Of a stretch of 64,000 nucleotides of DNA, positions 7,379 through 53,166 are shown piece after piece. The DNA lies in NCBI GenBank assembly GCA_949287835.1, contig CASEHV010000011.1:62001-126000 (forward strand), written 5' to 3'. This stretch comes from an uncultured Helicobacter sp. GTDB taxonomy: Bacteria > Campylobacterota > Campylobacteria > Campylobacterales > Helicobacteraceae. Under the pieces are notes generated by a model. It saw nothing but the letters and a program-made list of their open reading frames with translations. It searched no databases and was not told where the DNA came from. A program made the position numbers and the translations under genes. Numbering within the stretch: position 1 is the stretch's first letter; each line of letters starts with the position of its first letter.

Positions 7379-7608
7379 TCTCAAAAAGACATCATGAAAA
7401 AAATAGAAAAATATTCTTCGTCTTTGGCTCAGAAAGCGAACGTTATATTGAGCGTAACGAAACATCGCGCGATTCTACGCTTCAGAATCTTTTATGAGTT
7501 TTTAGAATCTCTTTGTAAATCTTTGGAATCTAGATTCTATGTAGATGTTTTGTTGCGCTCAAGATGACTTAAATTTTTCATTCCGAATGAATATGAAGAA
7601 TCTTTTGT
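7379..7608. repeat. Intergenic copies of the A/B palindromic repeat in opposite orientation
   Basis: On the plus strand 7407-7480 holds an A-like unit (ATTCTTCG...GGCTCAGAAAG) and a B-like unit (TTATATTGAGCG...CGAAACATC). At 7541-7568 and 7580-7608 the same two units appear on the minus strand (AGATGTTTTGTTGCGCTCAA; CATTCCGAATG...GAAGAATCTTTT). The two halves are therefore an inverted pair of about 200 bp. This is the only copy seen outside a gene. A 90-codon plus-strand frame across it (7295-7567) is probably fortuitous. Confidence 0.65.
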
Positions 7609-30455: not shown

Positions 30456-31080
30456 AAAAACTAATGAAATAAAAGAACTTTTTTTAGAGCATTATGCACA
30501 TGCAAAGACTGAGTTAAGATATAGTAATATATATGAGTTATTAATCGCCGTCATGTTATCTGCACAATGCACCGATAAACGCGTAAATATGGTAACACCA
30601 GAGCTTTTTAGAAAATATCCAAGCACGAAAGAATTAAGCATTGCAGACATAGATGAGCTAAAGGAAATAATAAAATCTGTTTCATTTTTTAATATGAAAG
30701 CAAAGAATCTAATATCTATGGCAAAGAGGGTTGAGAGTGATTTTCATGGCGAGATTCCACATAATCAAGAGGATTTAGTAAAGTTAGATGGAGTCGGGCG
30801 AAAAAGTGCTAATGTCGTGTTAGGAGAATTTTTAGGTTTAAACTATATGGCAGTAGATACACATGTTTTTCGTGTTTCTCATAGACTAGGTCTTAGCAAG
30901 AGCAATAATGTATTACAAACAGAAAGCGATTTAACAAAGCTTTTTAAGGATAAATTAAATTTATTGCATCAGGCATTTGTATTATTTGGTCGCTATAAAT
31001 GTAAGGCGTTAAAGCCTATGTGTCAAGATTGCTTTGTTAGCAAATATTGCGTTAGTAAAGATGTTTTTAAGCCTAAATGA
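30448..31080 (+). CDS. nth: Endonuclease III
   Basis: 210 aa from ATG 30448 (an ATG four codons upstream is in frame; the true start is uncertain). Helix-hairpin-helix with catalytic Lys in KLDGVGRKSANVVL, catalytic Asp in AVDTHVFRVSHRLGL, and a C-terminal [4Fe-4S] loop C-x6-C-x2-C-x5-C (CKALKPMCQDCFVSKYC). It removes oxidised pyrimidines and cuts abasic sites in base-excision repair. It overlaps the DUF455 gene by 8 nt, and pgi starts 13 nt downstream. Confidence 0.93.
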   Translation: MSKKTNEIKELFLEHYAHAKTELRYSNIYELLIAVMLSAQCTDKRVNMVTPELFRKYPSTKELSIADIDELKEIIKSVSFFNMKAKNLISMAKRVESDFHGEIPHNQEDLVKLDGVGRKSANVVLGEFLGLNYMAVDTHVFRVSHRLGLSKSNNVLQTESDLTKLFKDKLNLLHQAFVLFGRYKCKALKPMCQDCFVSKYCVSKDVFKPK

Positions 31081-31093
31081 TATGGAGAATGTC

Positions 31094-32725
31094 ATGGTTA
31101 GATTTGAGCTTTTTTATGATAAGAGATTTGATTCTAAAGCGCTGGATTCTTTGTTTGAGAAAATTGTAAGAGAGAAACGCAGTGATATAAGTGGCTATTA
31201 TGAGTTGCCATATCTTGATAAAACATTGCATGAGTGTATGGCTTATATGCAGGAGATGGCAGATTTTCTGGGATTAGATTCCCAGAATCAAGTCATTTTG
31301 AATAAAAACGAAATATCTTTGCAGAATCTAGATTCTTCGACTTCGTCTCAGAATAACTCTTTACGTCATGTTGAGGCTTTAGCCGAAACATCTAGGAATC
31401 TGGATTCTAAAGATTCTTCGACTGCGTCTCAGAATGACGGATGGAGTCATGTTGAGCATAGCGAAACATCTACATGGAATCTAGATTCTAAGAATCATGA
31501 TATGTTTTCTGAAAGCAAAGTCATATTGAGCGAATGTGAAACATCTCTTGATTCTACAAAATCACAAAATCAAGATGCAGATTCCAAAAAAACTTTAGAA
31601 TCTAAAAAAGAAACCAAAAAAACACAAAACAGACAAGAGACATATTTCACAAAGAAAGAAAACACAACCCTAAAATCCATCATCATCATAGGCATAGGCG
31701 GTAGTTCTCTTGGATTAAAAGCCATAGACACCATGCTATGCCACCTGCCAAATAGGCGCGATATTTCCCTGCGATTTTTGGAGCATACAGACCCCATTGA
31801 GATACAAAAAGCGTTAAGCGGCATTAATTGTGATGAGAGTCTTTTTATTATTATCTCAAAGTCTGGGCTAACCATAGAGACGACTTCACTTATGAAATAC
31901 TGCATTCATACATATAATCTTTTAGAGAGAAAGCGTCATCTGCTAGTCATTAGCGATGAGGGTTCGCCACTGCATAGATGGGCAGATGAGAGGGGTATTT
32001 ATAGTATTAGTATTAAACCAAATGTGGGTGGACGTTTTAGTGTGCTTTCTGCTGTGGGAATTGTGCCTTTAGCACTGCTAGGCTATGATGTGAGAGCTAT
32101 TTTGCAAGGCGCAAGGGAGCTTCAGGATAGCTTTATGCAAAGGCAAAGTGAGCATTTATTGCAGAAGGCATTATTCCTAGCGGATAATCATGAAAGAAAG
32201 ACTATTAATGTGCTTTTCTCATACTCTAGCGTTTTTCGTGATTTTAATCTTTGGTATGTCCAGCTTTGGGGTGAGAGTCTTGGTAAAAAGAGTTGTGGCA
32301 ATAAGATGGGGCTAACGCCCATTAGCCTTATTGGCAGTATCGACCAGCACTCTTTCTTGCAGTTAATATTGGAGGGGAAAGAAGATAAGAGTGTTACAAT
32401 GCTAGGGGTGGATTGGAGTGATTTTTGTGGGGTTAGCATTCCAAATCTTAGTATGGAGGGCATGGAGAGTAGCGACTTTGTCAATGGTATATCGTTTGCA
32501 AAGCTACTACACTCTCAGCAAATCGCTACGCAAAATGTCATAAAAAGCGAGGGCATTCCACTAGATTCCATACAGATGAGTGCCTTGTGTGAGAGTAATG
32601 TTGGCTCTCTTATTATGTATTATCAGCTACTTACCTCATGCGTGGGCTGCTTATTTGATATAGATACATATAATCAACCAGCAGTAGAGAGAGGTAAGAG
32701 ACTGCTTAGGGAGATGCTTAGGTGA
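31094..32725 (+). CDS. pgi: Glucose-6-phosphate isomerase with in-frame repeat insert
   Basis: 543 aa from ATG 31094 (GGAG 6 nt upstream; earlier in-frame starts lie inside nth). Pgi signatures: IIIIGIGGSSLGLKA at about 195-209, HTDPIEI, ISKSGLTIETT, the SVLSAVGIVPLAL region, and a C-terminal QPAVERGKRL. It interconverts glucose-6-phosphate and fructose-6-phosphate. Residues about 61-183 are a foreign low-complexity block (DSSTSSQN, HVEALAETS, DSKDSSTASQND units, then Lys/Thr/Gln-rich) lying just before the first strand of the sugar-isomerase domain. Without it the protein would be about 420 aa, near the short epsilonproteobacterial form. The frame is intact, so the enzyme is probably still made. 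Confidence 0.9.
   Translation: MVRFELFYDKRFDSKALDSLFEKIVREKRSDISGYYELPYLDKTLHECMAYMQEMADFLGLDSQNQVILNKNEISLQNLDSSTSSQNNSLRHVEALAETSRNLDSKDSSTASQNDGWSHVEHSETSTWNLDSKNHDMFSESKVILSECETSLDSTKSQNQDADSKKTLESKKETKKTQNRQETYFTKKENTTLKSIIIIGIGGSSLGLKAIDTMLCHLPNRRDISLRFLEHTDPIEIQKALSGINCDESLFIIISKSGLTIETTSLMKYCIHTYNLLERKRHLLVISDEGSPLHRWADERGIYSISIKPNVGGRFSVLSAVGIVPLALLGYDVRAILQGARELQDSFMQRQSEHLLQKALFLADNHERKTINVLFSYSSVFRDFNLWYVQLWGESLGKKSCGNKMGLTPISLIGSIDQHSFLQLILEGKEDKSVTMLGVDWSDFCGVSIPNLSMEGMESSDFVNGISFAKLLHSQQIATQNVIKSEGIPLDSIQMSALCESNVGSLIMYYQLLTSCVGCLFDIDTYNQPAVERGKRLLREMLR
31275..31640 (+). repeat. A/B palindromic repeat block inserted in pgi
   Basis: Contains B-like units at about 31291-31317 (degenerate), 31362-31391, 31446-31472 and 31529-31556, and A units at 31331-31356 and 31410-31438, separated by AATCTAGATTCT-type spacers, followed by a Lys/Gln/Thr-coding tail. 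All are plus-strand in the gene's own frame. Confidence 0.85.
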
Positions 32726-37883: not shown

Positions 37884-40772
37884 ATGGTAAAAAAAGATAA
37901 TCCAAGTATTCCTTATAGCATAAGCAATTTCCCAAAAGTCGTGCCAGATGTGAAATTCTTTAGCACAGAGCCAATCCAGCAAGAGATTAAAGCTTTCGTA
38001 GGTTGGGACGGCATAAAAATCTTTGATGAAAACCTAGATATTTTAGAAACATTAAAAATCTATGCAAAGCAGTATCAAAACTATGCACAATCCTGCGGTA
38101 GATGCACCCCGGGCAAATATGGCGGCAAGGTTTTATACGAGCTTTTAAATAAGATTCAAAACGATAGCAGTGCAAGTGAAAGCGATATTGACAAGCTAAA
38201 AGAAGTATGCGAACTCATGACTTTCACCTCAAAATGTGAGGTTGGTAAGACGACGCCAAAGCCAATTTTGCAAATTTTGGAATCAAATCCCGAGGTTTTT
38301 TACAATGCTATAGAAAATAAAAATAAAACTAAAAGCAGAGAGGTGGATTCTAAGAGAGAGACGACACTTTGGAGTGTGGATTATGGAATTAAAAGAGATA
38401 TTACTTTACCTGCGGATTCTAAAGATTCTTCACATTCGTTCAGAATGACGGATTCAAATACCCCTCCCCCCAGCACCCTCCCGCAAGGTGAGGAGGAGTT
38501 ATCTCCTCGCCATGTTGATAATGGTGCAACAAATGTTTCTCAAGGGGGATTTTCACACCGTCATGTTGAGGCGTTAGCCGAAACATCTCTTCAAAATATA
38601 GATTCCACAAAAGGAACAAATCATCAAGCCAACATGGAATCCAAATTGTCGCAATCTCAGAAAATTCATGAAAAAGAGCAATCAGACAGCAGTAGTGCTG
38701 TCTTTGGATTACAAGGTGTGCGTGGAGAACACAGCACTCCCCCGATAAGCGAAAAAAGCGGCGGCTTTTTTGGCGTGCGGGGGAGCGGGGAGGGGGAGCA
38801 GCCCTTTTTTGCGCCAAAAGAAGAGAATTTGCAAAAAGGAGGGATTAAAGAAATGAATCTAGATTCTCAAGAAAATAAGAATCTAGATTCTAACAACACG
38901 CAAAAAGATTCTTCACATTCGTTCAGAATGACGAATTTAGGTCATGTTGAGCGAAGCGAAACATCTTTTGATTCCCAAAAAGACGTCATGTTGAGCGGTA
39001 GCGAAACATCTATTCAGAATCTAGATTCAAAAGATTCTTCGCCTTTGGCTCAGAACGACGTTATTACATCTCAAAATGACGTGGCTTTTAAGACTCAAAA
39101 TGAAACAAAAACACAGAAAAACCAAAATGAAATAAAAAATCAATCTCTCATAAATAGCCAGGAGCAGAATATTTTCGAGCCATTAGAAAGATACAAAAGC
39201 GCTATTAAAACAACCATTAAAAATGTAAGTTACATATCTAAAATCACCGCCCCATGCACAGATGAGTGTCCATCGCGTGTGGATATTCCCGCCTATATTG
39301 AGGGGGTAAAGGATATGCGTTATTTGGATTCCCTCTCTAGCACAAGAAGTAGTATGCCTTTAGCACAGGTATGTGGTCGTGTGTGTCCGCATCCATGTGA
39401 GAATGCCTGTAGGAGGGCATTGCTAGATGAGCCTATTAGCATTATGGAGCTAAAACGCGTGGGTGCTGATGTAGAGTTTAGCCTAAAGCAAAATGCCAAA
39501 CTACCCTCTTATGCTAGTCCGAATAATATAAAACAAGATTCTAGTAATTATAAGGGTATAAAATCTGTGTGCGTCATTGGTGCAGGTCCTGCGGGACTTA
39601 GCAGTGCGTATTATCTAGCCCTGCGTGGCATAGAGGTCGATGTTTATGAAGCATTACCCGTGTTAGGTGGTGAGGTAGCTGTGGGTGTACCGAATTATCG
39701 TATGCCTATTAGAGAATACAACCATGATATAAATTCACTCAAAGAAATGGGCGTTAGATTCCATGTTAATTATGAAGTGAATAAGGATAATATAAAAGAG
39801 CTAGAGAGTAGGCATTCTGCCATAGTCATAGCGGTCGGCACGAGGGCTAGTAAGAGGCTTGGTTGCAAGAATGAGAATGTCAATCTTAGCGGATATTTAC
39901 CCGCGATAAAGTTTATGGATAGTGTGAATCTAGCACAGAAATTCAACATAGGAGAATTGCCAAATCTACATGGTAAGAAAATCGTGTGCGTAGGTGGCGG
40001 CTTTACTTCTATGGACGTTGTGCGGTGCTGCATTCGTCTTGGGGCAAGTAGCGTTACTATGCTATATCGCAGGGACGAGGCTACTATTATCAAAAATACT
40101 TCAAAAGAGGAATATGAGGAGGCATGTGAGGAGGGCGTAGTATTTGAGTTTTTGAGTGCGGTAGATGAGATATTGGAGGATAATGGCAAATTATCGGGGC
40201 TAAAAATCAATCGCTACGAGCTTGTGAAAAGCTCTGAAAATCCAAAAGGAGAGCTAAAGCTAGTGAGTGGCGGGGAGATGATGGAGTGCGATATTTTGAT
40301 ACCTGCGGTTAGTCAAGAGATGGATTTTGAGTTAGATTCTGATTTTGGCGTGAATGTTACGAAATGGAAAACTATCGAGGTTGATAATGCTAGTTATTCT
40401 ACGCATAGAAAGGGCGTTTTTGCCGCTGGGGACTGCGTTAGCGGACCGCTTACTATCGTAAATGCTGTGGGGCATGGTAGGCGTGTGGCAAGTGTGGTAG
40501 CAAATTATATTAAAAGTGGCAGAGTGGAGATTAGCGATGATGAACGCATGGAGGATATTTTAAAGCAAATAGGAGTCTTTGATAGCAATAGAGAGGTGCA
40601 TGGATTCCTAAGTGGCAATAAAAGAGAGGTGAGTAACAAGTTATCGCCTAATTTTAGAAACAAGAATTTTGATGAAGTGAATTTCGGTCTTAGTCGAGAG
40701 GACGCGCTAAGTGAGGCATCACGCTGTATGCGGTGCTATTACATTAGTATGTGTGTGATTGGAGAGGCTTAG
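37884..40772 (+). CDS. NuoF-like iron-sulphur domain fused to GltD-like FAD/NAD(P)H oxidoreductase, with repeat-derived linker
   Basis: 962 aa in the nuoF position. Residues 1-145 correspond to the HP1265/NuoF C-terminal cluster domain: SCGRCTPGKYGG (Cys71, Cys74) and Cys118 in SKCEVG. The third ligand of the canonical CxxCxxC is Gly77. Residues about 150-430 are low-complexity DNA-repeat translation. Residues about 450-530 are a GltD-type 2x[4Fe-4S] domain (CTDECPSRVDIP; CGRVCPHPCENACRR). Residues about 560-900 are an FAD/NAD(P)H oxidoreductase (GAGPAGLSSAYYLA, GGGFTSMD, LYRRDE, FAAGDC), ending in a CMRC-x5-C tail. GltD modules oxidise NADPH or NADH and pass electrons to iron-sulphur partners, so this protein could feed complex I. 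AGGAG lies 6 nt before the ATG. Confidence 0.85.
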   Translation: MVKKDNPSIPYSISNFPKVVPDVKFFSTEPIQQEIKAFVGWDGIKIFDENLDILETLKIYAKQYQNYAQSCGRCTPGKYGGKVLYELLNKIQNDSSASESDIDKLKEVCELMTFTSKCEVGKTTPKPILQILESNPEVFYNAIENKNKTKSREVDSKRETTLWSVDYGIKRDITLPADSKDSSHSFRMTDSNTPPPSTLPQGEEELSPRHVDNGATNVSQGGFSHRHVEALAETSLQNIDSTKGTNHQANMESKLSQSQKIHEKEQSDSSSAVFGLQGVRGEHSTPPISEKSGGFFGVRGSGEGEQPFFAPKEENLQKGGIKEMNLDSQENKNLDSNNTQKDSSHSFRMTNLGHVERSETSFDSQKDVMLSGSETSIQNLDSKDSSPLAQNDVITSQNDVAFKTQNETKTQKNQNEIKNQSLINSQEQNIFEPLERYKSAIKTTIKNVSYISKITAPCTDECPSRVDIPAYIEGVKDMRYLDSLSSTRSSMPLAQVCGRVCPHPCENACRRALLDEPISIMELKRVGADVEFSLKQNAKLPSYASPNNIKQDSSNYKGIKSVCVIGAGPAGLSSAYYLALRGIEVDVYEALPVLGGEVAVGVPNYRMPIREYNHDINSLKEMGVRFHVNYEVNKDNIKELESRHSAIVIAVGTRASKRLGCKNENVNLSGYLPAIKFMDSVNLAQKFNIGELPNLHGKKIVCVGGGFTSMDVVRCCIRLGASSVTMLYRRDEATIIKNTSKEEYEEACEEGVVFEFLSAVDEILEDNGKLSGLKINRYELVKSSENPKGELKLVSGGEMMECDILIPAVSQEMDFELDSDFGVNVTKWKTIEVDNASYSTHRKGVFAAGDCVSGPLTIVNAVGHGRRVASVVANYIKSGRVEISDDERMEDILKQIGVFDSNREVHGFLSGNKREVSNKLSPNFRNKNFDEVNFGLSREDALSEASRCMRCYYISMCVIGEA
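38415..39145 (+). repeat. A/B palindromic repeat block plus GC-rich repeats inside the NuoF/GltD-like gene
   Basis: A' units (26 nt, translated DSSHSFRMT) at about 38421-38449 and 38907-38933; B units near 38560-38588, 38940-38966 and 38985-39011; an A unit near 39033-39060; then several TCAGAATGAC-like short units to 39130. Two GC-rich segments (38458-38510 and 38690-38815) of different origin lie between them. The whole block replaces what would be a linker between two domains. Confidence 0.85.
38737..38785. repeat. Nested palindrome inside a coding sequence
   Basis: Outer arms CTCCCCCG (38737-38744) and CGGGGGAG (38778-38785); inner arms AAAAAAGC (38752-38759) and GCTTTTTT (38764-38771) with a 4-nt loop. 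The inner hairpin alone looks like an intrinsic terminator, yet it lies mid-gene in a long operon. Confidence 0.75.
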
Positions 40773-40784
40773 TAGAGGTGTGAT

Positions 40785-43700
40785 ATGAGTGAGAGACGTC
40801 AATTTATCATTAATATAGATGGCAGAGAATGCCTAGCAAATGAGGGCGAGACTATCTTAAATGTCGCTAGGAATAATGGCATAAACATTCCTACTCTATG
40901 TGATTTAAAGAAGCTATCACCCACAGGGGCGTGTCGCATGTGTGTCGTGGAGCAGAATGGAAATATTATCGCTAGTTGTAAAAGCTATGTGAGTGGCGAG
41001 ATTAGCGTAAAGACGAACACAGAGCGACTGCAAAAATATCGCAATCAAATCATGAGTTTCCTTTGTATCAATCACCCGCTAGAGTGCGGTGTGTGTGATA
41101 AGAGTGGCGAGTGTGAGTTGCAAGATAAAGTGCTAGAATCAAAAGTCGATATTCAACCATTCTTTGCCCTGCAGAAGAAAAATGACTTCGTGCATTTTAC
41201 AAATAAGATTTATGATGAGAGCCTCTGTATCGTGTGTGAGAGATGTGCTAGGACATGTAATGAGTATGTGGGTAATAATGTCCTAAGTGTGCTATCTGGT
41301 GGCTTTAGCTCTAAGATTGGCGTGAATTTTGACGCTTACTGTGAGGACTGCGATGAGTGCGTTAGTGTATGTCCTACTGGGGCTATGATTTCTAATCGAT
41401 TTATTTATACTAGCAATGCGTGGGAGCTAGAGAAAGTGCCTTCCCATTGTCTGCACTGCTCTATGCGGTGCGATTTGTATTATGAGATTAAGCATAATAT
41501 AGATTCCAAAAAGGAAGTGTATAGAATCAAAAATGACGCACATATAAAGCAGCTTTGCCACGCTGGGCGGCATTTTTTCATGCGGACAAATGAGGCAGCT
41601 ACCTTTACTGACTATGAGGTAGATATTGAGGATATTTTATCAAATGTAGATTCTGTGCGACTTAGCGTAGAGTGTAGTAATGAGGAAGCCTTGATTGCAA
41701 ATATGTTAGCAAAACATGCGGCTAAAAAGCTTTTCTGTGATGATGCTCTGCTTTTTAAGGAATTTGAAGATATTGTAAAAGGCGTGAGTGGCTTTTATTG
41801 TGGAGTGAATTTTAATAAAGATTCCATGTCTCAAATGTCTTTTGATTCTAAAGAAAATGTCATGTTGAGTGATAGCGAAACATCTTTAGAATCCATGCAA
41901 AAAGAAAATCAAAATTTAGATTCTAAAGATTCTTCGCCTACGGCTCAGCATGACGGTGTGATTCGCGCTCAGAATGACTTAGCACAGACTCAGAATGTCA
42001 TTGCGATTCATTCTCACAATGATGTGGCAGAGATTCATGACGACAGTGTTGTTATGTCTCAAAATAACTTAGTAAAACAGAATCCACATTTCAAACCCAC
42101 AGATAAAAATATAAGAACACTGCTAGATAATGCAAAAGTAGTAATCAATCTTGGTTGTTATATGTTTGATGAAATTCCTATTTTGCGTAGCGATTTATCA
42201 AAACTTGCCATAAAAAAGGGCGTGAAAAATATTTGGATTAATGCTATAGCAGAGTCTCGCTTTCAGAGTGATTTAGAGATAGTATATGATGTGTATAGTG
42301 AGCCACAGGTTAGCATTGTGCTATTAAAGCTATTGTGCGATTTTATAGACACAGAGGGTATTAATGTGCCTTTTGATATGTGCTTAGTGCGTGATTATCT
42401 TAGCAGTATTGACTTAGGTGATGCCATAGCACTTAGTAATATTAGTGATTATGAGATGGAGCGTCTAGGTGAGTTAATGTTTAGGAGGCATTCTATCATT
42501 ACGCCACATCATGAGGAAATCATTACGCAAGATAGGGTAGTGATATTAGTTGGCATGGATTTTTATAAATCGCCTCATGCTAGTGTGATAGCAAATATTT
42601 TAGGCATGTTTGATTGCATGGATTTTATCGATGTGGCAGTGATTCCTTATGGGAATGCAAAGGGTATTGCTAACATTTGCGATTTGACTAAAGATAATGC
42701 TTCATATCAAGGCACACTTGGCATTCGTACATTGGGCGAGTATAGCATTTCACCATTTCCTAAGTTTATGAAAGTTTTAGATTCTAAAATGATGAGAGAT
42801 TCTTCGCTAAACGCTCAAAATGACGTTGTAATTCACTCCCGCAATGACGGGGCAAAGCCTCAGAATGACTCGTGGGTAAAGATTCAGAATAACGGTGTTG
42901 TTATATCTCGGAATGACAATACACATGATTCCCAAAAAGACGTGGATTCTTCGGCAAAGACTCAGAATGACAAATTAGCTATGAATGACACGTCCGCCGT
43001 CATGTTGAGCGGTAGCGAAACATCTATGCAGAATCAAGATTTTAAAGATTCTTCGCCTACGGCTCAGAATGACAATGTGATTCACGTTCGGAATGACTTG
43101 GCGGTAAAGATTCGAAATGACATTGCGATTCGCGTTCAGAATGATTTAGCACACACTCAGAATGACAATGCAATTAACTCTCGGAATGATGGGGTAGCAC
43201 AGAGTAGAAATAACGGTGTGATTAAAAATCAGAATGACAAATCAGAGATTAAAAATCATGTTGCAAACACAACCAAGAATGACCTAGTATCCAAAAATCA
43301 CCCCTCTAAACAAAATACTTCATCAAACAAATACACTCACACAACACAGAGTGATAATAAGCACATTCCTACATTGCCACTGCAGTTTATGGAAGGCACG
43401 TTTGTTGATATAAATAATCATCTGGTTAAAATTGCCCCCGCATTTATCAATGATGATTACACATTGTCTAAAGAGGGGGACGATGGTTTGCTAGATTTAC
43501 TTGATATATGCAGGGATTATTTGGATTTGGATTCAGATTATATTATAGAGTTATGCGAGGAGCTACCCTTTAATAATATAGCTTTTGATTCCCTATCTAG
43601 CAGGAGCAAGGCATATTTAGAGAATGCAGAGCCTAAGCCATTAGCACTAGATAGCATTTCTGTATCAGAGAATCAAAGCGGGGCATTTATCTATCATGCG

Positions 43701-43925
43701 GGGCTAAGTGGGAATCTTAGTATGCCTAATAATGAGCTAAGGGTATCGCGGCAGTTTCTATCTGCCATGCGGTTAAGGGAGGAGGAGCAGATATTACTAG
43801 AGCTTGGCAATGTGGTGTTAAGTGTTAGAGTCTGTCTTATGCCTACTCTAAGTGGCATGGTAGGGATTTTGAGTAGCGATGAGATACTAGATAGTAGAAA
43901 ATATTTTGATTTTAAAAGAGTATAG
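40785..43925 (+). CDS. nuoG: Complex I subunit NuoG, first tandem copy, with two repeat inserts
   Basis: 1046 aa. The N-terminal [2Fe-2S] domain has Cys39, Cys50, Cys53 and Cys65. Then come the His/Cys motif of cluster N5 (NHPLECGVCDKSGECELQD), two more [4Fe-4S] sites (CIVCERCARTC; CEDCDECVSVCPTGAM), and an N7-type set (CLHCSMRC ... LCHAGRHF). The remaining molybdopterin-like domain is interrupted by low-complexity inserts at about residues 345-430 and 665-835 derived from A/B repeats. Without them the protein is about 790 aa, normal for NuoG. It is separated from a second, divergent nuoG by zero bases (TAG-ATG). Confidence 0.93.
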   Translation: MSERRQFIINIDGRECLANEGETILNVARNNGINIPTLCDLKKLSPTGACRMCVVEQNGNIIASCKSYVSGEISVKTNTERLQKYRNQIMSFLCINHPLECGVCDKSGECELQDKVLESKVDIQPFFALQKKNDFVHFTNKIYDESLCIVCERCARTCNEYVGNNVLSVLSGGFSSKIGVNFDAYCEDCDECVSVCPTGAMISNRFIYTSNAWELEKVPSHCLHCSMRCDLYYEIKHNIDSKKEVYRIKNDAHIKQLCHAGRHFFMRTNEAATFTDYEVDIEDILSNVDSVRLSVECSNEEALIANMLAKHAAKKLFCDDALLFKEFEDIVKGVSGFYCGVNFNKDSMSQMSFDSKENVMLSDSETSLESMQKENQNLDSKDSSPTAQHDGVIRAQNDLAQTQNVIAIHSHNDVAEIHDDSVVMSQNNLVKQNPHFKPTDKNIRTLLDNAKVVINLGCYMFDEIPILRSDLSKLAIKKGVKNIWINAIAESRFQSDLEIVYDVYSEPQVSIVLLKLLCDFIDTEGINVPFDMCLVRDYLSSIDLGDAIALSNISDYEMERLGELMFRRHSIITPHHEEIITQDRVVILVGMDFYKSPHASVIANILGMFDCMDFIDVAVIPYGNAKGIANICDLTKDNASYQGTLGIRTLGEYSISPFPKFMKVLDSKMMRDSSLNAQNDVVIHSRNDGAKPQNDSWVKIQNNGVVISRNDNTHDSQKDVDSSAKTQNDKLAMNDTSAVMLSGSETSMQNQDFKDSSPTAQNDNVIHVRNDLAVKIRNDIAIRVQNDLAHTQNDNAINSRNDGVAQSRNNGVIKNQNDKSEIKNHVANTTKNDLVSKNHPSKQNTSSNKYTHTTQSDNKHIPTLPLQFMEGTFVDINNHLVKIAPAFINDDYTLSKEGDDGLLDLLDICRDYLDLDSDYIIELCEELPFNNIAFDSLSSRSKAYLENAEPKPLALDSISVSENQSGAFIYHAGLSGNLSMPNNELRVSRQFLSAMRLREEEQILLELGNVVLSVRVCLMPTLSGMVGILSSDEILDSRKYFDFKRV
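41828..42072 (+). repeat. Repeat block 1 in first nuoG
   Basis: B unit at about 41858-41885 (ATGTTGAGTGATAGCGAAACATCT), A unit at about 41922-41956, then four or five short TCAGAATGAC-type units spaced about 27-30 nt. Encodes VMLSDSETS and DSSPTAQHD followed by QND-like repeats. Confidence 0.85.
42778..43290 (+). repeat. Repeat block 2 in first nuoG
   Basis: The longest expansion: about fifteen short units with core CAGAATGAC or a variant (CGGAATGAC, CGCAATGAC), mostly 24-30 nt apart, with one full B unit (42999-43025, VMLSGSETS) and one full A unit (43045-43074, DSSPTAQND) in the middle. It looks like amplification of the 3' half of unit A. Confidence 0.85.
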
Positions 43926-46900
43926 ATGAAAATAGTTATTGAAAATAGAGAGTTTGAGTGCTCAAGTGAGGATACGATATTAGATGTCGCAAGGCGCAAT
44001 GGGATTAGGATTCCTACCATTTGTTACCTTAGTGGTTGTAGTCCGACATTGGCATGTAAGATGTGCATGGTCGAGGTCAATGGTAAGAGGGCATATAGCT
44101 GTAATGCAAAGGTAAAAGATGGCATGAATGTCCTTGTCAATACCCCCGAGATTTTGAGTGATAGAAAAGAGATTATGACGACATATTGTGTCAATCACCC
44201 GCTAGAGTGTGGCGTGTGTGATAAGAGCGGTGAGTGCGAGTTACAGGATTTTACCCTGCATACAAAGGTCGATACTCAGCTATTTGGTCTAAAAGAGGCA
44301 GATAAAAAGTCATACTCTTTTGCACAAAGCTTTTACGACCCTGCCTTGTGTATCATGTGCGAGAGATGCGCTACGACATGCAAGGATAATATTGGCGAGA
44401 GTAATCTAAAAGCAGGTAAGGCAAATCTTTTTACGCCAGATAATTATAAAGATTCTATGGGAAAAGACCCCTACTCTGTATGGGCAAAGAGACAAAAGGG
44501 TTTAATAGAGTTTGTGGGTGCTAATGAGTGTAAGGACTGCGGGGAGTGCATATCAGTATGCCCTGTGGGTGCTATGACTTACAAGGATTTCACATATACT
44601 AGCAATGCGTGGGAACTACAAAAGGTAGAATCTACCTGTGCGCTATGCCCTGCGGGGTGCAATGTCATTTATAACGTAAAGCACCTAGATGTAAAGGGCG
44701 ATGTGGATAAAGTCTATCGTGTGCAGAATGATTATTTGTATAATCCAATCTGTGGTGCAGGTCGCTTTGTCTTTGATAATGTCTCTCTTGGCAGTAGAGA
44801 TATGGGGGCAGCACTTGAGGCATTAAATAGGGCAGATTCTATATATCTTGGAGGGAATGTTAGCAATGAGGAGGCGCTTTTAGCACATCTTTTAGCAAAG
44901 TTTCTTGACATTCCGCTATTCTCTTATGAGGCTAGATTGTATCAGAGTTTTTATGGACTACTAGATTCTAGTGCTAAGATGGATTATATTGCTACATTCG
45001 AGGATTTTAAAAATGCGAATGCTTTTATAGCCTTGCACTGCTATTTTAAGTATGACTCCCCCCTTGTGCGATATAGAATCAATAATAATCTAAAACTGCA
45101 GAAAAGCACTCAGCTAATTAATATTTCATTATTTAAAGATTCCCTGCTGCAAGGGCTTGGCAAAAATGCGGTAGATATTATAGGTAGTGCGGGTAGCATT
45201 AGTATGAGTGGAATCTTAGGACTAGTGTTTGCCAATAATCTTATCGATGAGTTTTTAGAGGAGTTCCCTAATGCTTTGAGATATTTAGATGATTATGTAG
45301 CTAAAACTAAGGATAGCAGCGAAGAATCTAGTGAGGACTCCAGCGATAAACCTAGCTTTAGCAATGCGGAATTAGCGGTGTTAGAGTCACTAGGACTAGC
45401 GGATTTCTCAAGCTTAAAATTAGCTAAAAAAGGTGGAATCCTGCTTTTATCTGCCCAGAGCATAGAGGATTTTATTGATAGTATTGCCTATGATAGCTAT
45501 GAGATAGAGCTAGGGCAGCAGAGCATACAGGAGGCTGTCGGCACTACGATTGCACAAGATATTGCAAAAGGTGCTAGTGATTCCCTGCTAGATATGGAAT
45601 CAAGGGTCGAAATCTTCTCTAGGATAGTGAATTTTGTATGTCAAAAGCTAGAGCTAAAGACATGCTATATTCCAAAAGATTCTAATACCATAGGCATTGC
45701 AAATCTCTGTGCTTTACCTAGCTTATCTTTGCATAAAAGTTTTTCTCCTAGCTATTGTATCGGCATTAGGACTAGCGGACATTTTATATTTGATTCTAAT
45801 CTTTCTAAATCTAGTGTGAAACCAGATTTTGCCCTCCCCAGCCTTATGCAGAATGAGGGTAGCATTACAAATATGGAAGTGCGACTTCTACCATTAAATC
45901 CTAGCGTAGCGTATCTTGATGATAATTTAGACGATGCACTTGACTTTAGCGATGTGGCATTAGAGATTCTAAGTGGCATTGATGATAGCACTCTTGAGGG
46001 GGATTTATCCTCTGTGCGTTATATCGGGGATTTGAGCGTGCTTTTGCATAAATATGCCTTTTATGGTAGTAGTGAAAAAAGTTGCCTTGTGTATAGAGAT
46101 GTGAGATATGAGAATCTAAAAAGTCGCTATGAGAGAGATGGTAGAGATTTAAGGGGGTATAGGCTGGAGTATAGGGATTCTTCGGCAAGCCTTGCGAATG
46201 ACGGTGTTGTTATATCTCAGAATGACATTGTGCTTAAAACTCAAAACGACGGTGCGTCCATGTTTCTAAATGACACGTCCACCGTCATGTTGAGCGGTAG
46301 CGAAACATCTCTGCAGAATCAAGATTCTAAAGAAAATGTCGTGTTGAGGACAGAGTCAAAAACATCTTTACAGAATCAAGACTTCAAAGATTCTTCGCTT
46401 AACGCTCAGAATGACGTTATGGCTACGACCCGCAATGACATTGAGGTTAAAACCCAAAATGACAACTTTATTAATACAAAAAACGAAGGTATTGTTAAAA
46501 CTCAAAACGACGTTGTTGCTACATCTCAGAATGATTTAGTTGTTAATATTCAGAGTGAAAATCTAGCCACATCTCAAAAAGAGCAAGAAACATTACAAAA
46601 CTCTAAGCTACATATAACCTTTTATCTAAAAATGAGGAAAGAAATGCAACCATGCAATGCAATAAAGCTAGAATCTCAGAATCATTTCAACCATGAGACC
46701 CTAAGCAGCGGTAATCTCCAATCAAAAAGCGGGATTTATACAAGTGCTGCATATCTAAAAGAGCTAGGGTTGAAAGAGGGAGATTATGTGAGTGTGAAAG
46801 GTAAGAGCGGTAGCATTACATCTCAAATCTATGTGGATTATGATTTGCAAGATTCTATATTGCTAATATCACCCATGATTTGCGAGGTAGATCAGGTATT

Positions 46901-46964
46901 TGATGATAGATTTTATGCTATGGTAGAGATAGAGCCTTGTAGATTAGAATCTAGTGCCATGTAA
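43926..46964 (+). CDS. nuoG: Complex I subunit NuoG, second tandem copy, with repeat insert
   Basis: 1012 aa. It has the same domain order as the first copy: [2Fe-2S] domain (CYLSGCSPTLACKMC, then Cys in YSCNAKV), NHPLECGVCDKSGECELQD, CIMCERCATTC, CKDCGECISVCPVGAM, and CALCPAGC ... CGAGRF for N7. Overall it is clearly diverged from copy 1, so the duplication is not recent. Residues about 749-890 are A/B-repeat low-complexity sequence; without them it is about 870 aa. A short acidic Ser-rich run (KDSSEESSEDSS) lies near residue 460. Both copies keep all cluster ligands, so both could conduct electrons. nuoH follows after 9 nt. Confidence 0.92.
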   Translation: MKIVIENREFECSSEDTILDVARRNGIRIPTICYLSGCSPTLACKMCMVEVNGKRAYSCNAKVKDGMNVLVNTPEILSDRKEIMTTYCVNHPLECGVCDKSGECELQDFTLHTKVDTQLFGLKEADKKSYSFAQSFYDPALCIMCERCATTCKDNIGESNLKAGKANLFTPDNYKDSMGKDPYSVWAKRQKGLIEFVGANECKDCGECISVCPVGAMTYKDFTYTSNAWELQKVESTCALCPAGCNVIYNVKHLDVKGDVDKVYRVQNDYLYNPICGAGRFVFDNVSLGSRDMGAALEALNRADSIYLGGNVSNEEALLAHLLAKFLDIPLFSYEARLYQSFYGLLDSSAKMDYIATFEDFKNANAFIALHCYFKYDSPLVRYRINNNLKLQKSTQLINISLFKDSLLQGLGKNAVDIIGSAGSISMSGILGLVFANNLIDEFLEEFPNALRYLDDYVAKTKDSSEESSEDSSDKPSFSNAELAVLESLGLADFSSLKLAKKGGILLLSAQSIEDFIDSIAYDSYEIELGQQSIQEAVGTTIAQDIAKGASDSLLDMESRVEIFSRIVNFVCQKLELKTCYIPKDSNTIGIANLCALPSLSLHKSFSPSYCIGIRTSGHFIFDSNLSKSSVKPDFALPSLMQNEGSITNMEVRLLPLNPSVAYLDDNLDDALDFSDVALEILSGIDDSTLEGDLSSVRYIGDLSVLLHKYAFYGSSEKSCLVYRDVRYENLKSRYERDGRDLRGYRLEYRDSSASLANDGVVISQNDIVLKTQNDGASMFLNDTSTVMLSGSETSLQNQDSKENVVLRTESKTSLQNQDFKDSSLNAQNDVMATTRNDIEVKTQNDNFINTKNEGIVKTQNDVVATSQNDLVVNIQSENLATSQKEQETLQNSKLHITFYLKMRKEMQPCNAIKLESQNHFNHETLSSGNLQSKSGIYTSAAYLKELGLKEGDYVSVKGKSGSITSQIYVDYDLQDSILLISPMICEVDQVFDDRFYAMVEIEPCRLESSAM
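46170..46600 (+). repeat. Repeat block in second nuoG
   Basis: Starts with a degenerate A unit (GATTCTTCGGCAAGCCTTGC, 46178-46197), B units at about 46283-46310 and a decayed one at 46336-46366, an A unit at 46387-46416, then seven or eight short CAGAATGAC-type units to about 46575. Encodes VMLSGSETS, DSSLNAQND and many QND/QNE repeats. Confidence 0.85.
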
Positions 46965-51360: not shown

Positions 51361-53166
51361 GTGGAGTATTTATTGAGTTTGATTATTGCCTGTCCCCTTG
51401 TCGCCTGTCTGTTTGTCTTTCTATTTGATGATGGAGGGGCGAAGAGATTTGGTAGGATAATATCCTTTATAGAGCTAGGATTGGTCTTATGGCTATTTTT
51501 CATCTATCGCATCGATGTAGCGGAGGTGCAGTTCTTAGATAGATTTGTCCTCATCGAGCCTTTGGGTATTGACTATATCGTATCCGTTGATGGAATCTCA
51601 CTTGCCTTAATTATGCTAACTGCCTTTATCATGTTTATAGCTAATATCTATGTGAGGCGGTTAGATGATTCCCGACCTCTTGTGGTATGCCTTTTATCCC
51701 TTGAGGGAATCTTAATGGGATTATTTTTATCGCAAAATGCCCTTATGTTTTATACATTCTGGGAGTTAGCACTGCTTCCTGTGCTATACATGGTAGGCGT
51801 CTGGGGTAGCGGGAAAAAGATTTATATCGGTATGAAATTTTTTGTCTATACCTTTGCCTCTAGCCTTGTAATGCTTATGTCTATTATTTATATGGGCTAT
51901 TTGTATTACTCTACTTATGGTATTTTTAGCTTTGATATGTATATGTGGAAAACTCTGAATCTACCGCTATCCACACAGAGTATTTTATTTTGGGGATTCC
52001 TTATTTCCATTGCGGTAAAGATTCCAATCATTCCGCTTCACACATGGCTACCACATATTTATAGTGAGGCACCTGCGCTAGGTAGCGTTATGCTTTCTGC
52101 CTTGCTATCAAAGATGGGGACTTATGCTATGCTAAAGATTTTATTACCGATTTTCCCCGATGCTAGTGTGTCATTTATGCCTATGGTTACCGTCTTGGCT
52201 GTGGTGATGGTGATTTATGCGGGTATCATTGCCTTTAGGCAGAGGGATATTAAAAAGGTGATTGCATATAGTTCCATATCGCACATGGGTGTCGTTATTT
52301 TGGGAATCTTTAGTTTCAATCCAGAGGGCATTAGCGGTGCAGTCTTTATGATGGTAGCACATGGCATTACTAGTGGTGGATTATTTTTGTTAGCAGGTAT
52401 GCTTTTCTATCGTATGAATACTCGCCATATCGATGATTTTGGCGGTATCGCTAGTGTTATGCCACATTACTCTACACTCTTTGCTGTTGTCATGCTATCT
52501 AATGTTGGACTTCCGCTTACTATCGGCTTTGTCGGTGAGTTTTTGTCGCTTTATGGATTTTTCCAGACTTCTGCGATTCTAACCGCACTTGCGGGGACGA
52601 CTGTGATTATCTCTGCGTGTTACATGCTATATATGTTTAAGAATATTTTTTATGGTGATGTGATACATGCTTCTATTTTGAAGCTAAAGGATTTGAATTT
52701 TAGAGAATATGCCACGATGATTCCATTGATTGCCGCTATTGTCGCTTTTGGAATCTATCCCAAGGTATTGCTTGAATTTATGCAGACTACATCTCAGCAA
52801 GTCATCTCTACCATGAATGCTAGAGCCACAGAGGATTCTAGTAAGGAGCATTTCTTAAAGGTGAATAACGGTCTTATTTTATCTGTTGATGATTATCTTT
52901 TTGAGAATGACGAGCCTTTAGAGGAGGAGATTATAGAGCCTCAGTCATTCAATGATAGAGAAAGACAGAATCTATATTCTACAAATTTTATTTATTCTAA
53001 GCCTTTGGAGAATAATCTAGGTTTTAGAGATTCTTCACATTCGTTTAGAATGACGGAAAATCAAGATTCCACAGAGGATTTGCAGAATCAAGATTCTAAT
53101 CAAAATCAAGATTTACTCTTGTCATCATTGATGGCAACATATCAGGGCAATTTAAGGAGAGCATAA
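51361..53166 (+). CDS. nuoM: Complex I subunit NuoM with repeat-derived C-terminal extension
   Basis: 601 aa starting at GTG 51361 (AAGGAG 6 nt upstream). About 14 membrane helices with FYTFWELALLPVLYMVG, VKIPIIPLHTWLPHIYSEAP, and HGITSGGLFLLAGMLFYR. The membrane part ends near residue 485; residues about 500-601 are a polar tail whose last 50 residues contain a translated A' repeat (DSSHSFRMT) and QDS/QNQD runs. Typical NuoM is about 490-510 aa, so the tail is extra. The stop overlaps the nuoN ATG by 1 nt. Confidence 0.93.
   Translation: MEYLLSLIIACPLVACLFVFLFDDGGAKRFGRIISFIELGLVLWLFFIYRIDVAEVQFLDRFVLIEPLGIDYIVSVDGISLALIMLTAFIMFIANIYVRRLDDSRPLVVCLLSLEGILMGLFLSQNALMFYTFWELALLPVLYMVGVWGSGKKIYIGMKFFVYTFASSLVMLMSIIYMGYLYYSTYGIFSFDMYMWKTLNLPLSTQSILFWGFLISIAVKIPIIPLHTWLPHIYSEAPALGSVMLSALLSKMGTYAMLKILLPIFPDASVSFMPMVTVLAVVMVIYAGIIAFRQRDIKKVIAYSSISHMGVVILGIFSFNPEGISGAVFMMVAHGITSGGLFLLAGMLFYRMNTRHIDDFGGIASVMPHYSTLFAVVMLSNVGLPLTIGFVGEFLSLYGFFQTSAILTALAGTTVIISACYMLYMFKNIFYGDVIHASILKLKDLNFREYATMIPLIAAIVAFGIYPKVLLEFMQTTSQQVISTMNARATEDSSKEHFLKVNNGLILSVDDYLFENDEPLEEEIIEPQSFNDRERQNLYSTNFIYSKPLENNLGFRDSSHSFRMTENQDSTEDLQNQDSNQNQDLLLSSLMATYQGNLRRA
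53020..53110 (+). repeat. Single A' repeat in the nuoM tail
   Basis: GATTCTTCACATTCGTTTAGAATGACG near 53029-53055, then CAAGATTC spacers. It is the 26-nt A' version, with the same translation as in the NuoF/GltD-like gene. Confidence 0.75.

Follow-up and report, generated by a model that had tools for sequence, protein, structure and literature searches.

A short hairpin element inserted in frame in many unrelated genes of a Helicobacter genome

In the stretch of Helicobacter DNA analysed (64 kb, hereafter the window), a NuoF/GltD-like fusion gene and two nuoG genes lie adjacent to each other, each with long low-complexity stretches built from repeats, which raises the question of what these repeats are and how they came to lie inside the reading frames of complex I genes. 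The original prediction described two palindromic units, A and B, as an in-frame expansion like that of the Rickettsia palindromic elements (RPEs). The NuoF position itself was occupied by a fusion of the NuoF 4Fe-4S domain with a GltD/dihydropyrimidine-dehydrogenase-like flavoprotein (37884-40772), beside the two nuoG genes.

Copies of the units were present, with the host frame uninterrupted, in all five genes named by the original prediction (the NuoF/GltD-like gene, both nuoG genes, nuoM and pgi), all on the + strand, although its coordinates of 38415-46600 left out pgi (31.3 kb) and nuoM (53.0 kb). The insert block of the NuoF/GltD-like gene (38415-39180) lies between the NADH_4Fe-4S and Fer4_20 domains and consists of an A unit with a loop of 8 that is read ..DSSHSFRMT (38424-38449), a B unit in the HVEALAETS frame (38560-38590), a copy of a further repeat, unit C (38617-38873), a second A unit (38907-38932) and B unit (38941-38966), and a composite of B, a palindromic linker (AGAATCTAGATTC) and A (38985-39059). 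The first nuoG copy (40785-43925) carries two blocks, one (41835-42085) with a B (41859-41885) and an A unit (41928-41954) followed by an array of half-units (QND), and one (42785-43300) with three A units (42798-42824, 42945-42971, 43047-43073), a B unit (42999-43025) and long half-unit arrays. The block of the second nuoG copy (43926-46964) spans 46164-46595, with A units at 46176-46202 and 46389-46415, B units at 46284-46310 and 46338-46367, and a half-unit array at 46406-46580. A single A unit (53029-53054) was found in the C-terminal tail of nuoM (51361-53166). The block in pgi (gene 31034-32725; block 31262-31657) holds A copies at 31331-31357 and 31412-31438 and B copies at 31292-31318, 31365-31393, 31446-31471 and 31520-31546. 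A second, distant Pgi-like gene was detected elsewhere in the genome (G000:C14:38901-40037; 28% identity, 559-codon frame), so the invaded Pgi may not be the sole isomerase.

Copies from the host genome are stem-loops of 26-31 nt with the form GTCAT-xx-TGAGC..loop..GCGAA-xx-ATCT, unit A being GATTCTTCG..loop..CTCAGAATGAC and unit B GTCATGTTGAGC..loop..GCGAAACATCT. The reverse complement of A (GTCATTCTGAGC..GCGAAGAATCT) is B with two compensatory stem pairs exchanged (TC/GA vs GT/AC), so that A and B, which had been treated as separate units, are one element on opposite strands. The GA/GA letters between the stems are conserved and the canonical apex is GCGAAGC. A covariance model made from 21 copies in the window had 96% of cells paired compared to 81% in shuffles, with four pairs changed on both sides. 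In a larger set of copies, detected by their outer arms alone, the four variable pairs (two of the outer stem, two apical) were Watson-Crick in 89, 84, 76 and 74% of copies compared to 44, 45, 57 and 35% after shuffling of partners. The folding energy of single units as single strands was unexceptional (z = -0.02 for A, -1.6 for B), and the hairpin therefore rests on covariation and not on energy; it is this covariation above shuffled controls that bears out the imperfect palindrome proposed for unit A. No Rfam family matched the element.

To count copies we sampled 864 kb, half of the 1.72 Mb host genome, in 41 stretches including the window. A loose regular-expression scan gave mostly chance single matches; the scored scan used in its place, with reversed sequence for calibration, detected 319 copies compared to 5 in the reversed sequence. 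Likewise, the type-B pattern with up to 3 mismatches matched the genome 66 times and its reversed form never did, and chance is thereby excluded. As some of the first stretches were chosen at already known matches, the density of copies should not be scaled up naively. Inside ORFs there were 199 copies (62%), in 48 of the 736 ORFs (about 6%) and with up to 11 per gene, and outside ORFs there were 118, although non-ORF sequence makes up only about 10% of the sample; genes were called simply as ORFs, and an ORF that carries elements may in some cases not be a gene. A purely coding picture of the repeats did not hold, since copies are also frequent between genes, as in an A and B cluster of both orientations at 7412-7602 of the window, where there is no convincing gene and only a 91-codon ORF.

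Copies were clustered: for 198 of the first 216, a neighbour in the same class lay no more than 120 bp away. The usual order was B forward, about 20 nt with the palindrome GAATCTAGATTC, A reversed, 6-9 nt and B forward again. Half-units end in CAGAATGAC and follow each other in tandem at a spacing of 18, 21 or 24 nt; pairs within 70 nt numbered 45 in genes, with the spacing in frame in 41, and 4 between genes. Half-unit arrays were divided 47:6 between genes and intergenic sequence compared to 69:37 for full units (P = 0.001). The predicted translation is a polar, low-complexity segment (VMLSGSETSxQNLDSKDSSPLAQND). An inventory of two units proved incomplete, as the inserts also hold these tandem half-units (QND repeats) and unit C, which had not been separated from A and B. 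Unit C is a third repeat family of 200-257 bp coding for SSAVFGLQ..RGEH..TPPISEKSGGFFG..PFFAPKEENL, and its copies in three unrelated proteins, those of the NuoF/GltD gene (38617-38873), an RND efflux gene and cysS (L036 8213-8468 and L038 12724-12920 of the sampled stretches), are 86-88% identical and each lie in the open host frame. Unit C recurs in part in five other genomes (G002, G004, G006, G007, G008). A further short repeat coding for TPPPSTLPQGEG-like peptides was seen in several insert blocks, e.g., at 38462-38500 of the window.

Host genes identified by sequence and Pfam were of all kinds: CysS, CarB, RecG, a RecJ-like protein, MurJ, TruB, ObgE, NadD, IspD, phosphomannomutase, UreD, UreE, UreF, an RND efflux pump, a Maf-like glycosyltransferase and an Eco57I-type enzyme, in addition to Pgi, NuoF/GltD, both NuoG and NuoM. 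Inserted protein segments reach about 250 residues. Cysteinyl-tRNA synthetase belongs to the normally essential genes, and the single CysS locus of the host carries a 250-aa insert, placed between the catalytic and DALR domains (residues 325/342 of 3tqo). In CarB, two blocks replace short linkers at residues 546/555 and 871/886 of the E. coli enzyme. Positions between domains were also found in phosphomannomutase, RecG, RecJ, ObgE, TruB and others, and in the other Pfam-annotated hosts the elements avoid the best domain matches, lying between them or beyond them, although IspD is a less clear case, in agreement with the linker positions originally described. An Eco57I-like gene and two neighbouring ORFs (L047 3226-9048) have the element reversed, so that HSERSEES and QHD repeats take the place of DSS..QND.

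Copies within genes were constrained in orientation, phase and loop length. A lies in genes on one strand and in one phase (GAT TCT TCG), with 88 of 89 copies in that orientation, and most B copies have the other orientation and are divided between its two open phases (48 and 29 copies). A loop length of 1 mod 3, which would put a TGA in frame, was found in 0/88 coding A copies compared to 18/66 intergenic copies (P = 5e-8), and phase 0 of B (VMLS..ETS) had a loop length of 2 mod 3 in 47/48 coding compared to 16/46 intergenic copies (P = 8e-12). Both loop-length results were repeated in the second half of the sample, which was fetched afterwards as a test set (P = 0.002 and P = 0.0002). The phase-0 preference of B is not forced by a stop within the element, and shared ancestry of coding copies may therefore contribute to it. 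Among one-mismatch variants of the QND 9-mer, stops were likewise found in 0/48 in genes and 8/24 between genes (P = 6e-5). Copies within one gene are not independent, which makes all these P values optimistic. Selection for an open frame is evident from these data.

Of 13 congeners, eight were rich in the element and five nearly without it, and across the family the distribution was patchy, 44 of 121 genomes having a match. When the invaded proteins were aligned with those of relatives, as the original prediction had proposed, the blocks of Pgi, CysS and the second NuoG were missing there. The 130-residue Pgi block was missing in 12/12 congener proteins recovered; CysS has 734 aa in the host compared to frames of 485-558 aa in 13/13 congeners, where the flanking parts are adjacent; and the congener alignment of NuoG copy 2 stops at aa 747-764 and resumes at 887-912, in proteins with matches on both sides of the block. 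Since relatives lack the blocks, these three inserts are not ancient domains. The Pgi of congener G008 (L203) has an unrelated and independent, DSK-rich in-frame insert of about 90 residues at another site, near its N-terminus. Four congeners, whose genomes were assembled independently, have one copy of the element in their NuoF/GltD gene. At about 65-75% identity in protein, even the nearest relatives are too distant for empty sites to be defined at base resolution or for recent insertion polymorphism to be seen.

More widely, the exact canonical 26-mer GTCATTCTGAGCGAAGCGAAGAATCT occurs in many bacterial phyla among the GTDB species genomes. The matches listed include Acidobacteria, Bacteroidota, Chloroflexi, Clostridia, Nitrospinota, Nitrospirota, Planctomycetes, Verrucomicrobia, Elusimicrobia, Gastranaerophilales, Candidatus Daviesbacteria, Omnitrophota, Deltaproteobacteria, Gammaproteobacteria and Helicobacter marmotae; many are metagenome-assembled, and the isolates include Mucilaginibacter, Winogradskyella and H. 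marmotae. The view of a family peculiar to this Helicobacter was too narrow, given this exact match in many phyla. Among the matches listed, 121 of 161 copies in other genomes lay outside ORFs, and in-frame hairpins were found between the helix-hairpin-helix and BRCT domains of an NAD-dependent DNA ligase (L115 176-2242) and inside a GcpE protein (L087 7061-7999), both in other phyla. An EamA transporter from another phylum (L074 5248-6315) contains an in-frame hairpin together with a tandem RND array similar to the QND arrays of the host. The exact 26-mer was found in 25 stretches among 2.9 million viral contigs, the B pattern in none of them, and the composite of B, linker and A had no match in phage and plasmid sequences. 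A single hairpin family, identical over 26 nt across phyla and not tied to a resident transposase, may perhaps colonise genomes repeatedly, in some lineages entering many housekeeping genes and adding translated segments, and so act as a cross-phylum source of new protein sequence, although we put this forward tentatively.

The host repeats are very probably explained by a small hairpin element that spread as BIME-like clusters, its coding copies being filtered by frame and site and its half-units expanded. The element would spread through the genome in clusters of alternating orientation (B forward, the linker GAATCTAGATTC, A reversed and a short spacer), and insertions would occur throughout the genome; those within genes would survive only where orientation, phase and loop length keep the frame open and only at linkers between folded domains, after which half-units would expand in tandem at 18, 21 or 24 nt, chiefly inside genes. 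The frame filter and position filter after insertion, and the in-frame tandem growth, are well supported. For the copying step the leading guess, itself somewhat doubtful, is a REP-like single-strand hairpin route with recombination between copies, the trans-acting enzyme having since been lost from the lineage or not yet been recognised, because in its hairpin, its alternating clusters and its spread across phyla the element is reminiscent of REP/BIME sequences. These are short imperfect hairpins in clusters of alternating orientation, present in hundreds of extragenic copies together with RAYT (Y1 HuH) transposases. No terminal inverted repeats of a known insertion sequence, target duplications or IS partner were recognised, at the resolution that such distant relatives allow. 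A current REP/RAYT system, with the hairpins as REPs moved by a resident REP-associated tyrosine transposase, would fit short hairpins in BIME-like clusters, and a Y1 transposase was over the cut-off in 37 of the 50 genomes with the canonical 26-mer (a count without a matched baseline), but it is improbable here: a Y1_Tnp (PF01797) transposase was found neither in the host nor in any element-rich congener, the genus richest in Y1_Tnp within the family (g2) was element-free in every genome listed, and most copies lie inside ORFs. RAYT as the current mobiliser in the host genome was rejected on the absence of Y1_Tnp from it and from the element-rich congeners.

Whether the segments are instead useful, as disordered polar linkers selected for a role in the protein (interaction, solubility or antigenic variation) with the DNA repeats as raw material, can be weighed from the same copies. 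The near confinement of half-unit arrays to genes and their in-frame spacing would favour such a role, as would the lower divergence of coding compared to intergenic copies and an excess of synonymous QND variants in genes (22/48 coding vs 4/24 intergenic, P = 0.02). However, this excess was lost once stop variants were removed (P = 0.24), so that it does not establish selection on the peptide itself; the lower divergence had no third-position signature, the inserts are absent in congeners, and the hosts share no common function (tRNA synthetase, efflux pump, DNA repair, urease accessory, complex I), and we consider a useful role unlikely. An excess of changes at third codon positions, tried as proof of peptide selection, was absent for whole units and weak and stop-driven in QND units. 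Open frames and the depletion of stops point to translation of the segments, which are probably tolerated rather than useful. A non-random targeting of complex I genes, suggested by four of the five invaded genes lying in one operon, is very improbable. Hosts made up 4 of 14 nuo ORFs compared to 48/736 overall (P = 0.01), but this excess is weak, post hoc and not corrected for a general clustering of hosts along the genome (9 adjacent host pairs compared to 2.9 expected); most of the other 44 host ORFs are unrelated to complex I, and in congeners, even those rich in the element, hardly any copies lie in the nuo operons. With 48 sampled host genes of all kinds, the single operon is an effect of the window. 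An assembly artefact or misjoined reads might be suspected in a draft genome of 37 contigs, and the original prediction had named this as a way in which it could fail, yet the copies have diverged from each other, obey the reading frame, differ in the domain boundaries at which they sit and recur in genomes assembled independently, for instance in a single-contig congener (G006) and in the NuoF/GltD gene of four congeners, which makes an artefact extremely improbable. The diversity of the 48 host ORFs, the frame sieve, the sites between domains and, for the genes checked, the absence in congeners identify the process as genome-wide insertion followed by purifying selection, and not as targeting of complex I.

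So far, in-frame coding palindromes have been reported mainly in Rickettsia and Wolbachia, which are intracellular bacteria, and in one archaeon. In the present case they occur at a larger scale and in another bacterial group, of which many relatives have been sequenced, with a hairpin common to many phyla, which makes testable the copying agent, the tolerance of essential enzymes for insertions of 100-250 residues and the rate at which non-coding repeats become protein. The inserts also add to protein length and make unrelated proteins look falsely alike, and genome searches with NuoG and CysS matched the efflux pump and other unrelated ORFs via insert segments.

No description of the element, by its DNA or peptide strings, was found in the open-access papers searched, and several known systems resemble it in part. 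With REP/BIME sequences it shares short imperfect hairpins, alternating clusters and hundreds of copies, but it lies mostly in genes (199/319), is without a Y1 transposase in the host and element-rich congeners, and has the 5' letters GTCAT where REPs conserve a GTAG/GGAG-type tetranucleotide; because it departs from REPs in transposase and in extragenic location, we do not file it there. ORF-bearing MITEs (ERIC, BOX and others) are also small, non-autonomous repeats with occasional in-frame gene fusion (PMC10969869), whereas the majority of copies of this element are in genes and the terminal inverted repeats and target duplications of known insertion sequences were not recognised. PARCELs, palindromic amphipathic coding repeats that form tandem domains mainly in membrane and surface proteins (PMC2996958), are likewise dyad-symmetric DNA coding for a repeated peptide in diverse taxa; compared by description only, they differ in that the hosts here are mostly housekeeping enzymes and that copies also lie between genes. 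The nearest likeness in mode is to RPEs, described as palindromic repeats of about 100-150 nt with an open reading frame (Ogata et al., 2000, 2002, as summarised in PMC10969869 and PMC4316617), with 44 copies reported in R. conorii, and found between genes and, at tolerant sites, in frame inside unrelated genes; in-frame coding palindromes are also reported in Wolbachia and Methanocaldococcus (PMC2996958). Like RPEs as so described, the element is palindromic, lies in frame in unrelated hosts as well as between genes (199 copies in 48 host ORFs, 118 outside), keeps the host frame, occupies sites compatible with the fold and is absent in orthologues. It differs in a unit of 26-31 nt arranged in mosaics, about five times shorter than an RPE, in its 319 copies in half a genome, inserts of up to 250 aa, tandem growth of half-units and a canonical hairpin found across phyla, and on account of the shorter unit, and of a comparison made by description and not with RPE sequences, we do not file it as an RPE. 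Of the RPE-like expansion originally proposed, the mode of action stands, with in-frame inserts between the domains of many unrelated hosts that relatives lack, while the preference for complex I and the restriction to Helicobacter do not. The mode is that of RPEs, and the family is, judged by the length and arrangement of its unit, a different one.
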